IMG/VR virus record: IMGVR_UViG_3300008108_000346 | Span: 1 to 24,576 of that record | DNA: 24,576 nucleotides | Strand: one strand, 5' to 3' | From: a virus | Shown here: piece by piece, positions 5,040 through 20,426 of the stretch | How the letters are laid out: the number at the start of each line of letters is the position of its first letter | Numbering within the stretch: position 1 is the first letter of the stretch | Notes under the pieces: model-generated | What the model was told of the DNA's origin: nothing | The model's input: only the letters and a program-made list of their open reading frames with translations | Database searches by the model: none | Made by a program: the position numbers and the translations under genes

Positions 5040-5402
5040 TTAGAAAAGTGCTCCAATTACTCGCTGTTCATTTATAAAGATATCAACCAAAGCGCCGTTT
5101 CTTCCTTCTGCTTCGAAAAAAGATACTCTAACATCAATACCATATTTTGCATCATCTACAAGACAATAGGATTGGATCTGACTTTCTATTCTCTGCTGAA
5201 TTACCGCTTCGTTTAATACAATTGAAAAAAGCATATCTTCAAGGTTACATCCAAATTCGGAAACACCTAAAACATCGCCTCTTCTTGTAAATAAAACATT
5301 TTCTATTTTCAAGATAAGTTGAGATATACCATCCGTTACGTCAATTGTATTTGACGTATATTTGTTTTCGGCTGGGCCTCTACTATAAATATCATTGATC
5401 AT
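5040..5402 (-). CDS. Baseplate wedge protein, gp25-like (gpW/lysozyme-like fold)
   Basis: The 120 residues are close to T4 gp25 (132). This is the small wedge protein that joins the inner baseplate to the sheath and primes sheath assembly. The family core is visible at residues about 24-60: an amphipathic helix (GISQLILKIENVLFT), then RRGDVLGVSEFGCNLEDMLF, matching the usual pattern of helix, T..GER, FG..L..LLF. A second helix with alternating charges (NEAVIQQRIESQIQSY, 64-79) and C-terminal strands complete the fold. It starts at an ATG 14 bases after a small hairpin and 17 bases after an AATATATA element. The gp6-like gene follows after 14 bases. Confidence 0.88.
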   Translation of the reverse strand: MINDIYSRGPAENKYTSNTIDVTDGISQLILKIENVLFTRRGDVLGVSEFGCNLEDMLFSIVLNEAVIQQRIESQIQSYCLVDDAKYGIDVRVSFFEAEGRNGALVDIFINEQRVIGALF

Positions 5403-5403
5403 A

Positions 5404-5430
5404 GAGAATATTCTTTTAATATATATTCTC
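5404..5430. promoter_or_regulatory. Inverted repeat abutting the gp25-like start codon
   Basis: GAGAATAT (5404-5411) and ATATTCTC (5423-5430) are perfect 8-base inverted arms around an 11-base AT loop. The repeat begins two bases before the gp25-like ATG on the transcribed strand and contains the AATATATA element in its far arm. It could be an operator, or a weak hairpin that limits ribosome access. The stem is mostly A/T, so RNA stability would be low. Confidence 0.35.
5420..5428 (-). promoter_or_regulatory. Putative phage promoter core, GAATATATA, before gp25-like gene
   Basis: Minus-strand GAATATATA lies 17 bases upstream of the gp25-like ATG. It is one of seven near-identical elements placed 14-31 bases before starts that follow an intergenic gap. 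No shared -35 element is visible. Promoter function is inferred from recurrence and placement. Confidence 0.45.
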
Positions 5431-5459: not shown

Positions 5460-6302
5460 TTAACCTGTGTAGAAGTAATCAACCCCTTCATCGCCTTTGA
5501 TCTCTTCAATAATAGCATCAATTTCATCCTTACCTTCAGTAGCAATCATATCATAGTTTATAGTAATGTTACCGGGTAGATTAAACGAGAAGGTACCTAA
5601 TATTCTAGCTAATTGCATCTTTGCCTTAGCAATACAATATCTGATAAACATTTCATCCTGGAATAATGCACAATCTGGAATTGTATTATAAACCTGGAAT
5701 ATACATGCATGTGTAGGAAGTTCTCCTTGGAATCTAAACTTATGAGTTAACCTATTGTATGAATATGATATTTGTGGCAATAGAACCTGTCTGGCAGTAT
5801 CAATAAAGCTAGAGTTAATTACATAATACATTAAGTTCTCCGAACCGATACCGGCACCGTATGTATCTGAATAGATAAATTTATCAATTGAAAAGTCAGA
5901 GTCACCTGCAGAAAATGAACGGTTACCAAATCCACCATCTTCACCACCAAACCCATTCCACTCAAATACATTATTAACAGAGAAAACGGTTGAAGGCATT
6001 GGAACGACACCTCTTGTGCTATTTACATTTGAACTTGATAGTGTATCGCTAGAATCATCAATGCCTTTATTAAAGCTAGGTTTATTCCAAGCAGTTGCAG
6101 GTAATGCAATATACATTTCCTCAACACTATCTTCATATATTTTATAAAAATAGTCCTTTGCTCTATTTATGATTCTTGCCAATTCATTTTTAGGAACCGT
6201 AAAAGGAATCTGACAACCTATTGTTAAGTCATCATTAATCTCCTTAATGAGAGCATCTAAACATGCTTGTGAACTAGGATCGTTACAGTTTACATAAGCC
6301 AT
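5460..6302 (-). CDS. Putative virion structural protein (neck/tail type), function not assigned
   Basis: The protein has 280 residues. Near the N-terminus (about 32-68) it has VPKNELARIINRAKDYFYKI followed by a conserved-looking EEMYIALP. The middle is Gly/Ser/Asn-rich and probably surface-exposed (NGFGGEDGGFGNRSF, about 116-130). The C-terminal part (about 225-270) is YCIAKAKMQLARILGTFSFN, then a LPG turn, TINYDMIATEGKDEIDAIIE and an acidic tail. A helical ends/beta middle layout like this is common in phage neck and tail structural proteins, but I cannot name the family. It sits between the amidoligase-like gene (5 bases away) and the gp25-like gene. Placement with wedge genes supports a virion role. 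Confidence 0.7.
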   Translation of the reverse strand: MAYVNCNDPSSQACLDALIKEINDDLTIGCQIPFTVPKNELARIINRAKDYFYKIYEDSVEEMYIALPATAWNKPSFNKGIDDSSDTLSSSNVNSTRGVVPMPSTVFSVNNVFEWNGFGGEDGGFGNRSFSAGDSDFSIDKFIYSDTYGAGIGSENLMYYVINSSFIDTARQVLLPQISYSYNRLTHKFRFQGELPTHACIFQVYNTIPDCALFQDEMFIRYCIAKAKMQLARILGTFSFNLPGNITINYDMIATEGKDEIDAIIEEIKGDEGVDYFYTG

Positions 6303-6307
6303 ATTCT

Positions 6308-7606
6308 TTAATCAATTTTTTCTACTTCTATGATTTCGGTTGAATCTGAAAACATTGCAAATTTGGTAGCTCTACCTTGTCTAAAAATGCCACCTTCCAT
6401 TTCGCCGCTGAATACTCCTCTGTGTCCAAAAACATAACAGTTATCAACTATAACATTTCGACTTACATATGAATCTTCAACTTTACAGCCAGTTACAGTA
6501 CTTCCACCAAATACATTTGATTCGAATAGAGAAGCATCATGGATTTCAGAATCAAAAATATCACAGCCCTTTATGTTTCCTTTTACTTTACATTCAACGA
6601 TATCTACACCAGTAATTTCAAAACATCTTTTAAGATCTGCGTCTTTAATCTGTATTCTTCCTGTATCGGAATCATAGTTAATTAATCCGCTATCCATATC
6701 AGCCTTAGTTAAAAGCTCAAATACTTTTTCTCTAATCTTAGGATAGTACATTTCAACAATCTGTTTTGCAGATTGAAGATCAACCATTAATTTAATATTA
6801 GGAAAGATCTCCTTAAACTTTTCGTATGTTTTATATGATTGTACAACCCCTCTATGCTTTTCAAGAACAAGATTTAGTTTCTTAATGTCGTCAGGACTGT
6901 ATGCAGGATTATCAAGAGTTTCAAATAATGAAGTTATAAAATGCTCCATCATAGATAAAATTGTGGAATATTTCTTTTCATAATCAGCTCCACCTAAGTA
7001 ACGAAATTCAATGTATCCTTTTGGAATCTTTGTAAAATTTATTCCATAATACTTTTCATTTACAAACATATAGTTCTTCCATAATGCTCTTTCCGGTGAA
7101 GGTTGTGTCATTCCACTAAGAGGTATGATAAACTTAATGGACTTAGCATACACCGAATCTTTCCTATTTGGAAATGCTTCATATACTTTATCCTCATTAA
7201 AGTTAAGTACAAATTTACCAATATCTAATTTTGTCATATTAGCAACAGGACCTAACTTCTTACCATCAAATGAAATGTTAACATGTATTGAACACCTATC
7301 ATTAGTAGAACCGTTCTCTCTTATCCACTTTAGCATTTTTGCAAGGATTAGTTTAGATTCAACAAATGGTAACGAACCGGTTACTAGTTCAATCATACCA
7401 GTTCCACCTGAGTTATCGGGTTCCATTTTAAAGACATCCCCCGATGGAGCAAAATCACTATGGGCCTTTTCCTCTATTCGGATCTTCTTATTAAGAGTAT
7501 TTGCTATACTATCCTTTGCCTTTTGAATATCTTCATTTGCAAAGAATTCAAATTCAAATCCTATGTTAGAAGAATAGATTGCATTAAGTTGTTCGTTAGA
7601 ATACAT
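6308..7606 (-). CDS. Amidoligase-fold protein (GCS2/glutamine-synthetase-like) with C-terminal pentapeptide-repeat helix
   Basis: The 432 residues carry a set of motifs matching the Amidoligase_2 family, which uses ATP to join carboxyl and amino groups. They are IGFEFEFF (15-22, the E.E metal-binding strand), GTGMIELVTGSLPF (68-81, with E73), CSIHVNIS (105-112, with H108) and GYIEFRYLGG (197-206, with E200 and R202). The first His of the usual HVH motif is Ile here, so catalysis is likely but not certain. After a helical linker (about 215-330) comes a run of five-residue repeats (about 348-395, pattern [S/A/C]x[I/L/V]xx) expected to fold as a right-handed quadrilateral beta-helix. Such enzymes are known to modify proteins or make small peptides. 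Here the substrate may be a virion protein, the cell wall or a defence target. It sits inside the tail operon, between a possible internal head protein and wedge genes, with its own AATATATA element. Confidence 0.7.
   Translation of the reverse strand: MYSNEQLNAIYSSNIGFEFEFFANEDIQKAKDSIANTLNKKIRIEEKAHSDFAPSGDVFKMEPDNSGGTGMIELVTGSLPFVESKLILAKMLKWIRENGSTNDRCSIHVNISFDGKKLGPVANMTKLDIGKFVLNFNEDKVYEAFPNRKDSVYAKSIKFIIPLSGMTQPSPERALWKNYMFVNEKYYGINFTKIPKGYIEFRYLGGADYEKKYSTILSMMEHFITSLFETLDNPAYSPDDIKKLNLVLEKHRGVVQSYKTYEKFKEIFPNIKLMVDLQSAKQIVEMYYPKIREKVFELLTKADMDSGLINYDSDTGRIQIKDADLKRCFEITGVDIVECKVKGNIKGCDIFDSEIHDASLFESNVFGGSTVTGCKVEDSYVSRNVIVDNCYVFGHRGVFSGEMEGGIFRQGRATKFAMFSDSTEIIEVEKID
6422..6565 (-). 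repeat. Pentapeptide-like repeats inside amidoligase-like gene
   Basis: The encoded residues about 348-395 parse as CDIFD, SEIHD, ASLFE, SNVFG, (G)STVTG, CKVED, SYVSR, NVIVD, NCYVF. Each has a small residue two before a central Ile/Leu/Val. This is a degenerate pentapeptide-repeat signature. The DNA itself is not repetitive, so the repeats are old or under protein-level selection. Confidence 0.6.
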
Positions 7607-7623
7607 TCACTATCTAATTTGTT

Positions 7624-7632
7624 TATATATTC
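7624..7632 (-). promoter_or_regulatory. Putative phage promoter core, GAATATATA, before amidoligase-like gene
   Basis: Minus-strand GAATATATA sits 17 bases upstream of the ATG at 7606, the same spacing as for the gp25-like gene. It lies within the 51-base gap after the small internal-protein candidate. Function is inferred from recurrence. Confidence 0.45.
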
Positions 7633-7657
7633 TAATAACCTGACAGTTAGTCGGTAA

Positions 7658-8065
7658 TTATAAGGGTCCGTTCATCAAGAACTTAATAGTTGCCCATATT
7701 TCATTATCCAATTGGGAAGCAGTTATTCTTGCGGCTTTTGGATAATCGCCAGCCCAAACTTTATTACCTTTATCATCATATAGAACCCAATCTAAAGTAC
7801 CTTCATATTGGCTCGGATGAATTTCCAATTCACCTCTTTTAGGTAAATCCTTAATATCTTTATGATCTTCCCCCTTAAATGCTTTAAATGAACTAGGAAC
7901 AGATTTATCTCCTTTGAAAACCTTAATATGCGTTGCAGTTCTTTCCTTCGTTTTCCAACCGTTGTTCTCTAAGTCAGAAAGAAAATCTTTCCATGAAGAT
8001 TTATCATAAGACTTATTTGCCTCATTAACCAAGAACTCGTTATATTTAAGTAGACGATTTTTCAT
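7658..8065 (-). CDS. Small protein with T4 capsid-targeting-like N-terminus, possible internal/injected protein
   Basis: The protein has 135 residues. Its N-terminus, MKNRLLKYNEFLVNEA, closely resembles the capsid-targeting sequence of T4 internal proteins (MKTYQEFIAE followed by A), which the prohead protease gp21 cuts after a hydrophobic-X-Glu site. Here the equivalent cut would fall after E15. The rest is hydrophilic: WKDFLSDLENNGWKTKERTA (25-44), then HIKVFKGDK, a beta-like stretch LDWVLYDDKGNKVWAGDY (90-107), and a C-terminal helix. The GW...ER..TH.KVF part faintly recalls HicA-type RNA-binding proteins, but this is too weak to call. If the N-terminal reading is right, the protein is packaged in the head and delivered with the DNA. 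It lies between the S1-like and amidoligase-like genes with its own AATATATA element. A soluble early or late protein of unknown role is the alternative. Confidence 0.6.
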   Translation of the reverse strand: MKNRLLKYNEFLVNEANKSYDKSSWKDFLSDLENNGWKTKERTATHIKVFKGDKSVPSSFKAFKGEDHKDIKDLPKRGELEIHPSQYEGTLDWVLYDDKGNKVWAGDYPKAARITASQLDNEIWATIKFLMNGPL

Positions 8066-8086
8066 AATTTATTATGATATTTAATC

Positions 8087-8095
8087 TATATATTC
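8087..8095 (-). promoter_or_regulatory. Putative phage promoter core, GAATATATA, before capsid-targeting-like gene
   Basis: Minus-strand GAATATATA lies 21 bases upstream of the ATG at 8065. It occupies part of the 35-base gap directly after the S1-like stop. Confidence 0.45.
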
Positions 8096-8100
8096 TACAA

Positions 8101-9255
8101 CTAGTCAGTTAATGCCATTGCAATCTTTCTATCAGTAGGACTGATACTTAAAATCTTAACAGTAATCTTATCACCACGATTTAGTTCAGTATCCTTCATT
8201 TTGGTCTTATGTATTAAACCACTAATTCCCTTTTCTAATTCAACAAAGGCTCCGTATTTGGTAACCTTAGTTACGGTTCCTAATGTAACCATCATAGGTT
8301 TATACTTATCAGATGCACCATCCCATAAATCTTCACGTGGCCCCTGCTGGGTTAATATGATCTTTTTATCAGAGATGATTTCTTGTACCCAGAATGATAT
8401 TGGATCACCTGGCTTAATACCTTCGCGTTGGAATAATTCTCGAGTCTTATCATCAAGCACAGTATCTGGAATTAAACCGGTTAAGCAACTATTAAATTCA
8501 GCAAATATACCAAATTTAGTTGTACCTGTTACAAATCCTGTAATTGGCTCTTTAATATTTTCTTGGAGATCATCAAGGGCGGTTGGAATAAGAGTCTTAA
8601 GATATGCTCGATGAGATACAATAATTGTATTTTTTTCATCAGAGAATGAAATTGGCATAACTATAAGTTCTTGGCCAATCAAGGATTCAAAATTATGTAA
8701 TTTATTTAATCCCGCTAATGATCCTGGCATAAAGCATTTAATTCCACCTACTTCAACCCAATAGCCTCCATGTATAAGTTCTGTAATTTTACCAGTAAAT
8801 GCAACAGTTTTATCACCAATTGAATTCATTATCTCATTGGTCTTAACCTCATCTATTGCATCAGAGATAGATGCAGAAACCATACCATGGGCACCGGGTT
8901 TAACTTTAACATTAACAATCATACCAACTGTTAATTGTTCAAGAATAGATTTAGGTTCTTTAAGAAGAGAGCACGTTGCGGTATATTTTGTACCAATATC
9001 AATTAACGCGCTTACCTTATTCCCTTCTTTATCTTTTGTAATTGAAATGATTATACCTTCAGTAGTATACGATTGTCTTGTTTCACATAACCTAAGTTGG
9101 TCTTCAACAGATTCCATTAAACCGTATTGGGCTAATGCTTCAACTACGTAAGGTTCTGTGCTTAATATTTTTGTTCCTTTAGGTACTCTAACTTTAAATG
9201 TTTTTGTGTCAAACGGGTCATCGCTTACGCGGATCGTAATTTCTTGTTCAATCAT
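8101..9255 (-). CDS. Ribosomal protein S1-like RNA-binding protein with four S1 repeats
   Basis: The 384 residues hold four S1 (OB-fold) repeats at about 62-131, 152-216, 237-302 and 322-383. The last is textbook: LGTVTKVTKYGAFVELEKGI, SGLIHKTKM, RGDKITVKILSISPTDRKIA. The second (GKITELIHGGYWVEVGGIKC, FMPGSLA) and third (GFVTGTTKFGIFAEF) are also clear, and the first is more diverged. Bacterial S1 has six repeats and about 550-600 residues. This is a shortened version with its own N-terminal segment of about 60 residues instead of the usual ribosome-docking repeats. S1 brings mRNAs with weak or absent Shine-Dalgarno sequences to the 30S subunit, so a phage copy may favour phage messages. It may instead protect or anneal RNA. 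It is preceded by an AATATATA element and a TATAAATA box, and sits in the tail operon after the spike genes. The call as an S1-domain protein is secure; the role is inference. Confidence 0.9.
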   Translation of the reverse strand: MIEQEITIRVSDDPFDTKTFKVRVPKGTKILSTEPYVVEALAQYGLMESVEDQLRLCETRQSYTTEGIIISITKDKEGNKVSALIDIGTKYTATCSLLKEPKSILEQLTVGMIVNVKVKPGAHGMVSASISDAIDEVKTNEIMNSIGDKTVAFTGKITELIHGGYWVEVGGIKCFMPGSLAGLNKLHNFESLIGQELIVMPISFSDEKNTIIVSHRAYLKTLIPTALDDLQENIKEPITGFVTGTTKFGIFAEFNSCLTGLIPDTVLDDKTRELFQREGIKPGDPISFWVQEIISDKKIILTQQGPREDLWDGASDKYKPMMVTLGTVTKVTKYGAFVELEKGISGLIHKTKMKDTELNRGDKITVKILSISPTDRKIAMALTD

Positions 9256-9286
9256 TGTTTTTTTATTTAGAAGATTATCTATAGAT

Positions 9287-9294
9287 TATATATT
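9287..9294 (-). promoter_or_regulatory. Putative phage promoter core, AATATATA, before S1-like gene
   Basis: Minus-strand AATATATA lies 31 bases upstream of the S1-like ATG in an 83-base gap, the second longest of the window. It is one of seven related elements. Confidence 0.4.
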
Positions 9295-9632: not shown

Positions 9633-10523
9633 TTATTTTGTTTTAACTTGTTTCTTACTTAAGTGTTGAGCAGGTGTCATTGGAACTATAGGTGGACTTG
9701 TAGGAGCACCTAAATTGCCAATATGGGTATGCTGATTAAATAGCTTTAAGAATGAATCTCCTAATACTAATTTTTCACTTGCCCCTTGGCCTAACTCAAT
9801 GGATGTTGAATGATTAACAATCATGTTTTCGCATTTAATGATTGCATCTTTACAATTGATCTCTGTATTATCGGTACTATTAATTATGAACTTTGCAGAA
9901 TGAGTAAATGTAATGTTACCGTCATTTAGCATAACTATTTTATCACCATTGGCATTAATGATTTCAACCGAATTATCTGGCTTAATATTAACGGTAGTTG
10001 GACCTGTTGCTGTTGTATAGTCCATCATTAAACCCTTTTCTTCAGTAAAGAAAACCTTAATACTTTCACCTTCTCTTTCATTTGTAACTTCTTCATTACC
10101 GCCACCTGTTAATCCAAATGCAGTATCATAAATAAGTACATGTGAATTTTGATAAGATGCCTGTATCTCTGCTTTTACTTCGTCAGATGGATAAAGACTC
10201 TCATGATATACTGGAGAATAATAACTACCACTATCAAATGTAACTCTTAGAATAGTTCCTAGTTTAGGAATAGAAAATGTACCGCTTCCACTATTACTAC
10301 CACCTGATGAACTTACAGAAGGCCTGGCCCAAGGTAAAGCTTCTTTAGGTAAAACAAAATCACTAGTAGGATCTGCTGGGTCAATTCTTTGGTCCATCTT
10401 ACCATATACCCTAATACGACAACGGCCTTCAAATAGTTCATCTACATTATCCTCAACTATTCCTACCCATTGTGTACCTGTTAAATTATCGGCTCTTAAT
10501 TCTTTAGTAGTTAGTCTTCCCAT
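9633..10523 (-). CDS. Central baseplate spike, gp5/gpV-like, without lysozyme domain
   Basis: The protein has 296 residues. The N-terminal OB-fold (about 18-108) shows WVGIVEDNVDELFEGRCRIR followed by VYGKM, then IPKLGTILRVTFDSGSYYSP, the standard gp5/gpV/VgrG pattern. Residues about 155-247 are short alternating strands with Asn/Asp turns (INANGDKIVMLNDGNITFTH, then FIINSTDNTEINCKD), fitting a triple-stranded beta-helix needle. The C-terminus has FNQHTHIGNLGAPTSPP (262-278). Its H265-x-H267 resembles the iron-binding HxH motif at the tip of P2 gpV-type spikes. T4 gp5 has a lysozyme domain between OB-fold and helix; here there is none. The protein pierces the outer membrane at contraction. 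It starts in a TAATG overlap with the preceding gene, placing it with the hub genes. Confidence 0.85.
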   Translation of the reverse strand: MGRLTTKELRADNLTGTQWVGIVEDNVDELFEGRCRIRVYGKMDQRIDPADPTSDFVLPKEALPWARPSVSSSGGSNSGSGTFSIPKLGTILRVTFDSGSYYSPVYHESLYPSDEVKAEIQASYQNSHVLIYDTAFGLTGGGNEEVTNEREGESIKVFFTEEKGLMMDYTTATGPTTVNIKPDNSVEIINANGDKIVMLNDGNITFTHSAKFIINSTDNTEINCKDAIIKCENMIVNHSTSIELGQGASEKLVLGDSFLKLFNQHTHIGNLGAPTSPPIVPMTPAQHLSKKQVKTK

Positions 10524-13955: not shown

Positions 13956-15776
13956 TTATGAGTCAATAAACAGAGACACCACATTCTCTACATATTGAGA
14001 ATCGGCATCGGTAAATAGGCTATTCTTAGAGTTATTTTTTGCTTTACTCCCATCAATGTTTCCTATTTGGTTATTATTCATGCTACCTGCCTGAGCACCT
14101 GATTGAGTACTTTGTAGACTAACAGTTCCCGCCTTTACAGATCCATAGGTTGCAATATCTACACCTCTTAAGTTTAGAATATCTTTTACACCAGCGGCAG
14201 ATGCATATATTCTACCCCTACCACCATTAAACATATTTTCAATATCCCCCTTATCCCTAGGCTTACCATGCTTTAGATCAATTTCAAATTTAGCCTCCAT
14301 TGGAAAATCATCATAACCTAAACCTTGCCCTAATGTCATAGTAGCATTATCACAATACATATTACCCATCATTACGATTGGATTAAGTGGATTACCAACC
14401 GTTAAATGCCAATCACCGGTAGGGTCACCACTAATGAATGCCTTTGTTGCTGTCATGCCTGGTACAGATCCAACGTTGTCTGATAAGAAGCCTCCTAATA
14501 GATTTCCTAAAAGAGTTTTACCTACCTTAAGTCCACCCTTAATAAAACTTTCTAAGTCAAAGTTTCCATTAGAATCTCCAAAGCCTGCCTTAAACCCACG
14601 CTCCACATCCCCAACAACAGAACCAATATAACCAGCAAAATCGCCGTTTCTTAATTTTGATGGGTCACCAAACTGACTTGCAACAAAACCACCAGCCCCA
14701 TAATATCTGTGACCCCCACCAAAGAACTGCCCATTATTAGTTGACATAGTTAACATATTACTTATGATATCAATCATTGCAATTTTAGGATTAACATAAT
14801 TCAATGACTTTAACTCATATTCAAAATTAAGCTTAATATCATTTGTAAACTTAATCCCTCTGTCCCTAACATTAGTCTTATTAACTACGTTAACGGGCCC
14901 AATCACAAAATTTGCATATGTTGTACTAAATCGGTCTACACCATCTGCATACTGTTGGCGTCTAAATTTTGTACCCGCGGTTACACCCTTTAATGTATCT
15001 AATGCAGCCTGCCCAACAACACCTCTCTTTTGATAAAAAGGCTGTTGTGTATAACCACCATCAGTTGCCTGAACACTTTCCATTTCGGTTGTTACCTCTT
15101 TAAATTCTAGCCCATATGAAAACTTTAGTATGTCATCGAGTTTATTACCCGTAGTCTCTCCCAAATATGTAACAGCAGTAACCCCAGCTACTTGAGTGCC
15201 CGGTACGGATTCATTTGCAACTGGAATGGTAGCCCCATTTGCATCTGTCCCACCGCCGCTTGCCGTTTGTAGAGTAATATCAAAAATGTTATCATTCACA
15301 GGTGTTGGAAATCTTCTTAATGTAACTAGATGATTTACCGGTATTTGTTTATAATATTTTAAGTACAAAAAGTCTTGATATTTATATGCTATCTTAGGAT
15401 AATGTGTATCAAAGAATTCAACAATTTTTGCAATAGATACATTATGAGCATCCTCACCTCCCATTAAAGGATTATCCGGACCATCAAGAAAATAACTAAA
15501 AGGTAATCCACCAGTTAAACCACCATACATACCTCTAAAGTTAAATAGAGCATATTCATTAAAAATAGATCTAGGAACTGGCGCATCCATACCTTTTGCA
15601 ACAGTATATGCATCAGGCTCAAATCTTTTACTATAAAAAGTTTGTCCAACAGAATCGGCAACATCAGAAGCAAAACCGACTGATTCTCCGCCAAAAACTC
15701 CTAAAGGTACAGCATTATTAGAATTAGGCCCGGTTGGGAGAGCACTATTAAGATTTGATATAATTTCCCTAGCCAC
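13956..15776 (-). CDS. Large tail/baseplate structural protein, GTG start
   Basis: The protein has 606 residues and is not identified by name. The N-terminal 130 residues are Gly/Pro/Phe-rich with MYGGLTGGLPFSYFLDGPDN. Then come YLKYYKQIPVNHLVTLRRFP (about 143-162), a helical LNFEYELKSLNYVNPKIAMI (about 319-338) and a glycine-rich GGGHRYYGAGGF. Near the C-terminus is a distinctive block, GDWHLTVGNPLNPIVMMGNM, then LGYDDFPMEAKFEIDLKHGK and MFNGGRGRIYASA, which looks conserved. It directly precedes the gp53-like and hub genes, so a baseplate or tail-tube-end role is likely. The start must be GTG: an in-frame TGA lies three codons upstream and the next ATG is more than 60 codons in. An AATATATA element is 19 bases upstream. 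Confidence 0.7.
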   Translation of the reverse strand: MAREIISNLNSALPTGPNSNNAVPLGVFGGESVGFASDVADSVGQTFYSKRFEPDAYTVAKGMDAPVPRSIFNEYALFNFRGMYGGLTGGLPFSYFLDGPDNPLMGGEDAHNVSIAKIVEFFDTHYPKIAYKYQDFLYLKYYKQIPVNHLVTLRRFPTPVNDNIFDITLQTASGGGTDANGATIPVANESVPGTQVAGVTAVTYLGETTGNKLDDILKFSYGLEFKEVTTEMESVQATDGGYTQQPFYQKRGVVGQAALDTLKGVTAGTKFRRQQYADGVDRFSTTYANFVIGPVNVVNKTNVRDRGIKFTNDIKLNFEYELKSLNYVNPKIAMIDIISNMLTMSTNNGQFFGGGHRYYGAGGFVASQFGDPSKLRNGDFAGYIGSVVGDVERGFKAGFGDSNGNFDLESFIKGGLKVGKTLLGNLLGGFLSDNVGSVPGMTATKAFISGDPTGDWHLTVGNPLNPIVMMGNMYCDNATMTLGQGLGYDDFPMEAKFEIDLKHGKPRDKGDIENMFNGGRGRIYASAAGVKDILNLRGVDIATYGSVKAGTVSLQSTQSGAQAGSMNNNQIGNIDGSKAKNNSKNSLFTDADSQYVENVVSLFIDS

Positions 15777-15795: not shown

Positions 15796-15803
15796 TATAT
15801 ATT
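15796..15803 (-). promoter_or_regulatory. Putative phage promoter core, AATATATA, before large tail protein
   Basis: Minus-strand AATATATA, preceded by an A, ends 19 bases upstream of the GTG at 15776 and overlaps the stop of the preceding gene. It would start the tail block. Confidence 0.45.
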
Positions 15804-16764: not shown

Positions 16765-17078
16765 TCTTTAAGGGATTGAAGCTCTGCTTCAAGCTCTTTT
16801 ATTTTAGATTCAAGTTCCTTTTCAGATGGTTCAAAATGGCTGCCCCATTCGGTTCTGATTGTTATAACATCTTTACTAAACTTATTACCCAGATTCATTC
16901 CTAAATCCTCGCATAAGTCAAAAAAGAATCTCATAATGTATTGATGTCTATCATCGTCTTGTTTAGAGTCTTCATAAACCTCAGTTGAGGTCCATTGTTC
17001 TCTACCGCCGCCATGATTATCGTCAATGACTCTTTTTATAACACCGTTACCGGCTGGCTCTAAAACTATCTTAACCAT
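16749..17078 (-). CDS. Hypothetical protein with C-terminal coiled coil
   Basis: This 109-residue protein is not recognised. A Gly/His/Asp-rich N-terminal part (IDDNHGGGREQWTSTEVYED) is followed by a mixed helix (HQYIMRFFFDLCEDLGMNLG). The C-terminal heptad-like helix EKELESKIKELEAELQSLKE (about 85-104) should form a coiled coil and an oligomer. The gene overlaps both neighbours, by 8 bases upstream and 16 bases downstream. Confidence 0.6.
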   Translation of the reverse strand: MVKIVLEPAGNGVIKRVIDDNHGGGREQWTSTEVYEDSKQDDDRHQYIMRFFFDLCEDLGMNLGNKFSKDVITIRTEWGSHFEPSEKELESKIKELEAELQSLKECKKS

Positions 17079-17445
17079 TTGATCTGCTTAATAATCCTTG
17101 GTGAACTTCTTTCATTATTTTTCTGGCAACCTTTTTATCAGTTTTCCATGTTTCCATATCTCTTATTGTTAAGATTGCATTAGCTTCTCTTAACTGCTCG
17201 ATCTCGGAGTCATTATAACCCATCTCTCTCCATGATGAAATTAGCTTAGCCTCAATTGCTTCAAGTTGTTCTCCGATAGATTTTTCCATACGATCTTTAT
17301 TGGCCTCAAATATTTCCTTTCCGGCTTTAATCGTGTTAGTTGTAAATTCACACCATTTGCTAAAAGGTAATTTACTTTTCATCTTTAAGATTCCTTGATA
17401 TTTCATCGCGGCTCTACGTTCTCTTCTTGTAGGTATGTTATTCAT
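17071..17445 (-). CDS. Hypothetical helical protein
   Basis: This 124-residue protein is not recognised. It begins MNNIPTRRERRAAMKYQGIL, very basic, then helical, amphipathic sequence (AGKEIFEANKDRMEKSIGEQ; YNDSEIEQLREANAILTIRD) to a basic C-terminus. I chose the ATG at 17445 because it follows the A/T leader AATAAAATAAACATT and an AATATATA element. A GTG at 17493 would add 16 residues that read like translated leader (ILAHQIQIIYNKINI) and would overlap the previous stop. The stop runs 8 bases into the next gene. A small scaffold or assembly factor would fit the helical, charged make-up, but there is no direct support. Confidence 0.6.
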   Translation of the reverse strand: MNNIPTRRERRAAMKYQGILKMKSKLPFSKWCEFTTNTIKAGKEIFEANKDRMEKSIGEQLEAIEAKLISSWREMGYNDSEIEQLREANAILTIRDMETWKTDKKVARKIMKEVHQGLLSRSNG

Positions 17446-17459
17446 AATGTTTATTTTAT

Positions 17460-17467
17460 TATATATT
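17460..17467 (-). promoter_or_regulatory. Putative phage promoter core, AATATATA, before helical protein gene
   Basis: Minus-strand AATATATA (preceded by GAT) lies 14 bases upstream of the chosen ATG at 17445. It supports that start over the upstream GTG. Confidence 0.4.
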
Positions 17468-17489
17468 ATCTGGATTTGATGTGCTAAAA

Positions 17490-17981
17490 TCACATATATC
17501 TCTCCTCTATTAAGGAGTATACACTATCTTTGATAGCTTCTTTAACTCGTTCATCCCTTATTTGATCTTCTATAAACGAGCGGAGTTCTTTTATTACTTC
17601 GTCTTCTTCAAAAGAAACACTCATAATGTCAAAAACATTCTTTTTAGGAACTGTTATTTGTAAGGATAGAGTTAGACTAACTTCATCAGCATTTTTTTGC
17701 TTATCAAAAAGAATTCTGATTGGGCTTTTTTGCTGAGGAGAAGATTCTCGTTTTCTTTGTACGCTAGGTACTTCTGAAGTAGCCGAATCAAAATCTAGTA
17801 CAGGATCATATGATCCAATAGGAATCATAAACTCGTTAATCAATGATGAAGATATTCTAGCGCCACTTTCAAAAGTAGTCCACTCAGAATCAGTACCCTT
17901 TACAGTTTCAACATTTCCTATCTTGTCACCCTTTATCCACTGAAGTTTTATAGGCTCTATTGTTTCTGTACTACTATCCAT
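17490..17981 (-). CDS. Hypothetical acidic protein
   Basis: This 163-residue protein is not recognised. The first half has short strands (IKLQWIKGDKIGNVETVKGT, about 11-30) and a possible disordered Ser/Gln/Lys linker (SVQRKRESSPQQKSP, about 73-87). A beta segment (EVSLTLSLQITVP, 99-111) is followed by an acidic C-terminal helix (FEEDEVIKELRSFIEDQIRD, about 123-142). No catalytic motif is visible. It directly follows the fibre gene (34-base gap) and may be a virion or fibre-assembly protein by position only. Confidence 0.6.
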   Translation of the reverse strand: MDSSTETIEPIKLQWIKGDKIGNVETVKGTDSEWTTFESGARISSSLINEFMIPIGSYDPVLDFDSATSEVPSVQRKRESSPQQKSPIRILFDKQKNADEVSLTLSLQITVPKKNVFDIMSVSFEEDEVIKELRSFIEDQIRDERVKEAIKDSVYSLIEERYM

Positions 17982-20417: not shown

Positions 20418-20426
20418 TATATATTC
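20418..20426 (-). promoter_or_regulatory. Putative phage promoter core, GAATATATA, before TTG-start gene
   Basis: Minus-strand GAATATATA, 18 bases upstream of the TTG start, overlaps the stop of the dCMP deaminase gene. It may mark the switch from metabolism genes to structural genes. Confidence 0.45.

Follow-up and report, generated by a model that had tools for sequence, protein, structure and literature searches.

In this study, we analyzed a 24,576-nt stretch of viral DNA (positions 1–24,576 of IMG/VR record IMGVR_UViG_3300008108_000346; "the window" denotes this full stretch), in which three neighboring open reading frames (ORFs) lie between a baseplate spike/hub gene and a gp25-like baseplate wedge gene. 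They encode an S1-like protein, a protein of 135 amino acids (aa) with a capsid-targeting-like N-terminus, and an Amidoligase_2-like protein. The locus as a whole is probably best explained as a conserved late S1–amidoligase pair in a T4-like tail region, where genes for cargo packaged into the head are acquired as well. Judged from related loci, the S1-like and amidoligase-like genes are evidently old, vertically kept late core genes shared by many related huge phages that probably infect Bacteroidota, and the 135-aa gene is evidently a recent insertion of about 450 bp between them, which brought its own AATATATA element.

The S1 protein, the amidoligase protein and a profile of the latter served as queries and yielded about 80 related contigs (identity 53–100%), 75 of which extend as far as S1. 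Element counts per gene were taken over distinct relatives. Two relatives are referred to repeatedly, namely the 181-kb G019 and the 462-kb huge phage genome LR756500, whose positions 300000–345000 constitute locus L104. The window phage is probably a huge phage with a T4-like tail operon and a host from the Bacteroidota. This host assignment was made because the named phages nearest to the tail proteins are those of Prevotella, Tenacibaculum, Chryseobacterium and Flavobacterium, besides uncultured huge phages, and because PMC7162821 gives Bacteroidetes as predicted hosts of mahaphages.

Conservation of the S1–amidoligase pair

S1 was found directly upstream of the amidoligase gene in 75/75 loci reaching S1, and the order amidoligase–neck–gp25–gp6 in 80/80 loci. 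Also LR756500 has the order spike, S1, amidoligase, neck, gp25 and gp6, with extra genes interspersed. Compared with close relatives, omega was 0.06 for S1 and 0.02–0.03 for the amidoligase, similar to gp6, indicating strong purifying selection on both; in both genes, synonymous changes by far exceeded amino-acid changes.

That all three genes arrived together in a single, separately promoted cargo cassette and act jointly, by translation control, a delivered protein and a modifying enzyme, is highly improbable. The layout that had suggested such a cassette in an original prediction was confirmed: three minus-strand ORFs have upstream gaps of 83, 35 and 51 bp (S1, 135-aa gene and amidoligase, respectively) with AATATATA in each, so each gene does have its own promoter-like element. 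However, of the relatives only two near-identical contigs carry the middle gene, while S1 and amidoligase are always present, and the empty sites of close relatives rule the cassette out. Co-occurrence at this site, which the same prediction had proposed as a check, to be answered negatively by a lack of linkage, thus applies to S1 and amidoligase but not to the 135-aa gene. Nor does the element mark an island. The flanking structural genes had been described as tightly coupled, but gp25 is preceded by a 57-bp gap and g606 by a 26-bp gap, both with AATATATA, and many other late genes have it as well; because true structural genes share the element, its presence is no distinguishing feature of the three genes. 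At the downstream edge there is no boundary, since the neck-type gene starts only 5 bp past the amidoligase gene, and it has an ATATATA element of its own in 0/53 relatives. We found no evidence that the three genes act together, leaving a joint function unsupported.

A somewhat unlikely alternative is that S1 and amidoligase are unrelated to tail or late functions and became fixed here by chance as core genes hitchhiking on late expression. It would account for larger mahaphages, in which both genes are present and S1 is located elsewhere, far from tail genes, and no fusion or tag ties either protein to virion parts. Strict adjacency and individually conserved elements throughout the relatives argue against hitchhiking, as do LR756502 and LR756504, where the amidoligase gene still has baseplate or neck genes at a distance of ~2–10 kb.

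Recent insertion of the 135-aa gene

The 135-aa gene is confined to two near-identical IMG/VR contigs (L009 and L010), which also provided the only homologues of its product in IMG/VR. An empty site is present in L011–L015; relatives 93–98% identical in the neighboring S1 and amidoligase proteins have such a site. From match end to match start, S1 and amidoligase are 497 bp apart in the window and 43 bp apart in an empty-site relative; comparison with L011 left 446 bp unaligned, with the flanks overlapping by 8 bp. Imperfect direct repeats are found at both ends of the insertion, and the downstream repeat TTACCGACTAACTGT matches the end of the S1 gene at the empty site of L012. As is characteristic for moron-type insertions, a single gene with its own promoter-like element is missing in close relatives with intact flanks.

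Searches of phages (up to E 1) and plasmids (up to E 0.1) detected no homologues of the 135-aa protein. A weak match over 28 residues in a metagenome-assembled genome of Bacteroidia was not trusted, and a HicA-like match (E 0.055), falling short of the cut-off, is not claimed. The single-sequence AlphaFold model, with a predicted local distance difference test score (pLDDT) of 51, was too poor for a fold search.

The same S1–amidoligase junction carries other inserts in relatives, namely a methyltransferase-like gene (L146/L045), a leucine-rich repeat (LRR)-like gene (L203) and a 58-aa gene (L213), where the labels methyltransferase-like and LRR-like were read from the sequence and have no profile match. 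In L030, a 137-aa gene with a similar tag-like leader, MKNMYIKKFDQFNRLNENA, is inserted at the spike–g96 element (locus positions 6237–6732), where L019 and L020 are empty. Between this 137-aa protein and the inserted 135-aa protein of the window no relationship was detectable.

The AATATATA element as a candidate late promoter

The total number of AATATATA copies in the window is unremarkable (9 vs 5.1 expected; 9/100 shuffles as high), and copies besides those listed in Table 1 are located at 20418, 21449 and 17460. Its placement is non-random: ATATATA precedes gp25 in 48/48, amidoligase in 39/40, S1 in 43/47, g606 in 36/37 and g96 in 19/25 distinct relatives, and is lacking ahead of 13 further genes of the tail region (0 of up to 56 relatives per gene). 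In G019, ATATATA occurs 18–45 nt before the start of 21/65 genes of the structural blocks vs 4/145 genes elsewhere, with a p-value (7e-9) that is only indicative because the late and early blocks were drawn with the gene list already seen. Among the products of G019 are a gp55-type late sigma factor (phrog_234, E 4.8e-14), a portal, and a protease and a capsid protein of the T4 type. T4 late promoters consist of the AT-only octamer TATAAATA and are gp55-dependent. From the element being concentrated before late genes and a late sigma factor being encoded, both in relatives, we infer that AATATATA is a gp55-type late promoter. A literature search found no paper joining a late promoter with Bacteroidetes phages.

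It is unlikely that AATATATA is instead a translation-initiation signal in an AU-rich leader, perhaps read by the phage's own S1. This reading stays in contention on account of the element's nearly constant distance from the start codon (mostly 24 nt for amidoligase and 24–28 nt across relatives for gp25); in addition, the genes are without Shine-Dalgarno (SD) sequences, and AU-rich leaders are known binding targets of S1 proteins. The tightly coupled genes, which need translation as well, have no element, however, and its concentration in structural blocks, the gp55-type sigma factor of G019 and the similar AT-only octamer of T4 late promoters all favor a promoter.

Two further observations concern the element. 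At S1 (window positions 9280–9294), it is extended to ATATATAATCTATA in most relatives and is located 35–40 nt from the start, compared to ~24 nt for the others. The ORF called at 17071–17493 with a GTG start contains the AATATATA copy at 17460. Its counterpart in G019 starts with an ATG preceded by the element at 21 nt, and by analogy translation probably begins at the ATG at 17445.

The capsid-targeting-like tag

The N-terminus of the 135-aa protein, MKNRLLKYNEFLVNEA, is close to the capsid-targeting core YQEFIAE of T4 IPII and IPIII, both of which open with MKTYQEFIAE. The first ten residues of IPIII are enough for packaging into the T4 head (PMC9026906). In LR756500, YxxF[LI]xE was found in 22 proteins with a spacing identical to that of T4. 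A core near the N-terminus is present in 24 LR756500 proteins vs 2.5 expected from internal stretches (p 5.5e-16), and tagged genes cluster in the S1–gp25 interval (7/22 vs 17/638 genes, p 4e-6), where both p-values are only indicative because the regular expression was picked once the LR756500 array had been seen and because some tagged proteins, including several LRR proteins, are paralogues. The bodies of the tagged proteins are varied and include LRR proteins and a polynucleotide (PNK) 3′-phosphatase. A second pattern, an MK[YF]I-type start, lists 34 LR756500 proteins; such leaders occur at 300000–345000 (L104), 11.7–17.0 kb, 180–202 kb, 312.9–323.4 kb and 455 kb. The prohead protease family PF03420 is above its cut-off in LR756500 (E 2.3e-12) and G019, while the contig of the window does not extend far enough to reveal one. 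The S1-like and amidoligase-like proteins do not carry the tag. Of the earlier idea of inserted cargo including a delivered protein, the part referring to the 135-aa gene is supported, as this gene has the appearance of cargo that was inserted and bears a leader of the capsid-targeting-like kind; S1 and amidoligase are untagged core genes.

The shared N-terminus could serve as another N-terminal signal, e.g., for membrane or compartment targeting, which we consider distinctly unlikely. The imperfect core match of the 135-aa tag and the presence of conserved proteins of unknown place among the tagged genes would fit such a signal. The YxxF[IL]xE spacing, being the same as in T4 IPII and IPIII, the sufficiency of the first 10 residues of IPIII for packaging (PMC9026906) and the gp21-type protease in LR756500 and G019 speak for capsid targeting.

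S1-like and amidoligase-like proteins

The labels given to both proteins in the original prediction were supported by Pfam, with E 3e-21 for S1 and, barely past the cut-off, E 7.6e-5 for Amidoligase_2 (PF12224; 23.1 bits vs the gathering cut-off of 22). Residues 49–382 of the S1-like protein align to residues 8–346 of bS1 (E 3.6e-31), corresponding colinearly to domains 1–4 including the ribosome-docking D1–D2. In G019, SD sequences were found for 5/210 genes vs 20 in a control interval. This scarcity agrees with PMC7162821, where phage S1 is linked to the absence of SD sites and such sites are stated to be rare in S1-encoding huge phages.

The AlphaFold2 model of the amidoligase (pLDDT 79.4) has a glutamine synthetase (GS)-like N-terminal domain, partly of low confidence, and a confident C-terminal beta-helix. 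Foldseek matched the model to glutamine synthetases (TM-score 0.25, low), pentapeptide-repeat proteins and phage amidoligases. The putative catalytic residues E18, E20, E62, E73, H108, N110, E200 and R202, assigned by our own reading of the GS-like site, are intact in the window protein and in 55/59 distinct proteins; they are lost in L170, L203 and L215, and L204 differs at N110 only.

Coordinates of the features

All coordinates are collected in Table 1. The neck-type gene has a homologue in Chryseobacterium phage MA9V-2 that carries a neck protein annotation.

Table 1 Features of the locus and its surroundings (window positions)
Feature	Position	Strand	Basis or remark
gp25-like baseplate wedge gene (region flank)	5040–5402	minus	Profile matches
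AATATATA ahead of gp25-like gene	5420–5427	minus	Distinct relatives (see text)
Neck-type gene (head-tail adaptor Ad2-like)	5460–6302	minus	phrog_211, E 3.5e-12
Amidoligase_2-like gene, 432 aa	6308–7606	minus	Pfam, AlphaFold2, Foldseek
Predicted C-terminal beta-helix of amidoligase, ~residues 301–432	6311–6706	minus	AlphaFold2 model
Late-promoter-like element of amidoligase gene	7624–7631	minus	Mostly exactly 24 nt ahead of ATG in distinct relatives
Insertion with imperfect direct repeats at both ends	7643–8112	minus	TTAACTGACTAGTTGT at 8097–8112; TTACCGACTAACTGT at 7643–7657
Lineage-specific inserted 135-aa gene, capsid-targeting-like N-terminus	7658–8065	minus	Only in L009/L010; empty site in L011–L015; core regular expression at residue 8
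Tag-coding stretch MKNRLLKYNEFLVNEA, candidate capsid-targeting sequence with V-N-E/A cleavage-like site	8018–8065	minus	Comparison with T4 ipII/ipIII and LR756500 proteins
Late-promoter-like element of 135-aa gene	8087–8094	minus	28 nt ahead of ATG
S1-like gene, 384 aa	8101–9255	minus	Pfam S1; bS1 domains 1–4 colinear; at the site in all relatives reaching it
Late-promoter-like element of S1 gene	9287–9294	minus	ATATATA 35–40 nt ahead of ATG in distinct relatives
Baseplate spike/hub gene (region flank)	9633–10523	minus	phrog_430, E 4.5e-14
g606 tail gene	13956–15776		26-bp upstream gap with AATATATA
AATATATA ahead of g606 tail gene	15796–15803	minus	Distinct relatives (see text)

Proposed model and its weight

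According to the proposed model, the site would be part of a T4-like tail operon and be transcribed late, with S1 and amidoligase, each with its own conserved AATATATA, switched on together with the virion genes; this co-expression follows if AATATATA is taken as a gp55-type late promoter. The S1 protein, as an equivalent of bS1 domains 1–4, may help 30S subunits to load late mRNAs with short, AU-rich leaders free of SD sequences, and the amidoligase may perform a late protein or peptide modification. The 135-aa protein would enter the prohead via its N-terminal tag, undergo trimming by the phage's gp21-type protease and reach the next cell, like the T4 internal proteins. The gaps of the tail operon would serve as landing spots for tagged genes.

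Several observations weigh against this model, in addition to the post hoc choices and paralogues mentioned above. S1 is unlinked to tail genes in mahaphages and Lak phages, and the score of the S1-like protein (136.7 bits) is far below the NCBIfam rpsA cut-offs of 524 and 577. The L170/L203/L215 clade, sister to that of the window, keeps a full-length amidoligase despite the lost residues, although the gene evolves faster there (omega 0.21–0.28 vs 0.02–0.03); because the gene is retained there without its likely catalytic residues, catalysis is apparently not always required. The window tag YNEFLVNE fits only a loose core, with one residue extra between F and E compared to T4 and LR756500. 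Late sigma factor and protease genes were found in relatives only, the window's contig being short, and a fixed distance between element and start codon also fits a translation signal.

A bolder generalization, which we regard as rather unlikely, is that huge Bacteroidota phages run a large and modular head-delivery arsenal, in which dozens of unrelated proteins share one T4-like capsid-targeting leader and were captured singly at late-promoter elements of the tail operon, beside an S1 dedicated to leader-poor late mRNAs. If the tag is read correctly, it would offer a sequence handle for proteins that huge phages bring in with their DNA and that could not be guessed from annotation. The analysis also flags two conserved late genes, S1 and amidoligase, for a role in virion production, and provides a candidate late-promoter motif for phages in which the literature search turned up none described.

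Comparison with known systems

The components are ordinary, since T4-like cargo with a capsid-targeting sequence, phage S1, amidoligases and late promoters are all of known kinds; the combination and the hotspot for tagged genes are new to our knowledge. With the T4 internal head proteins IPI–IPIII and Alt, whose capsid-targeting sequences are processed by gp21, the locus and its relatives share a short N-terminal leader with a Y-x-x-F-[ILV]-x-E core, exact in LR756500 and loose in the window protein, on unrelated bodies, non-conserved accessory genes and, in relatives, an encoded prohead protease of the gp21 family. In contrast to T4, the phages here are huge, probably infect Bacteroidota and have, in one genome, dozens of tagged genes, several of them in tail-operon gaps with late-promoter-like elements, and packaging is predicted from sequence. 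T4 late promoters likewise are AT-only octamers ahead of late genes, and a gp55-type sigma factor is encoded in a relative of the window phage; the sequence here is AATATATA, with a longer conserved version at S1, and is a candidate promoter element.

The four S1 domains are colinear with bS1 D1–D4 and, as for the huge-phage S1 proteins of Al-Shayeb et al. 2020 (PMC7162821), the genes are without SD sequences; the window S1 differs in having no D5–D6, staying well short of the rpsA cut-offs, and occupying a constant place in a tail operon together with a late-type element, a feature not mentioned in the passages of that paper that were consulted. Phage amidoligases of the Amidoligase_2 family, e.g., that of Agrobacterium phage Atu_ph07, have the same GS-like N-terminal fold with conserved E-x-E, H-x-N and E-x-R, whereas the type found here has a fused C-terminal beta-helix and includes one clade without catalytic residues. 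The 135-aa gene resembles phage morons as one gene with its own promoter-like element set between conserved genes. It differs from them in that its product looks targeted to the head and in that it sits at late-promoter-like gaps and is not lysogen-expressed.

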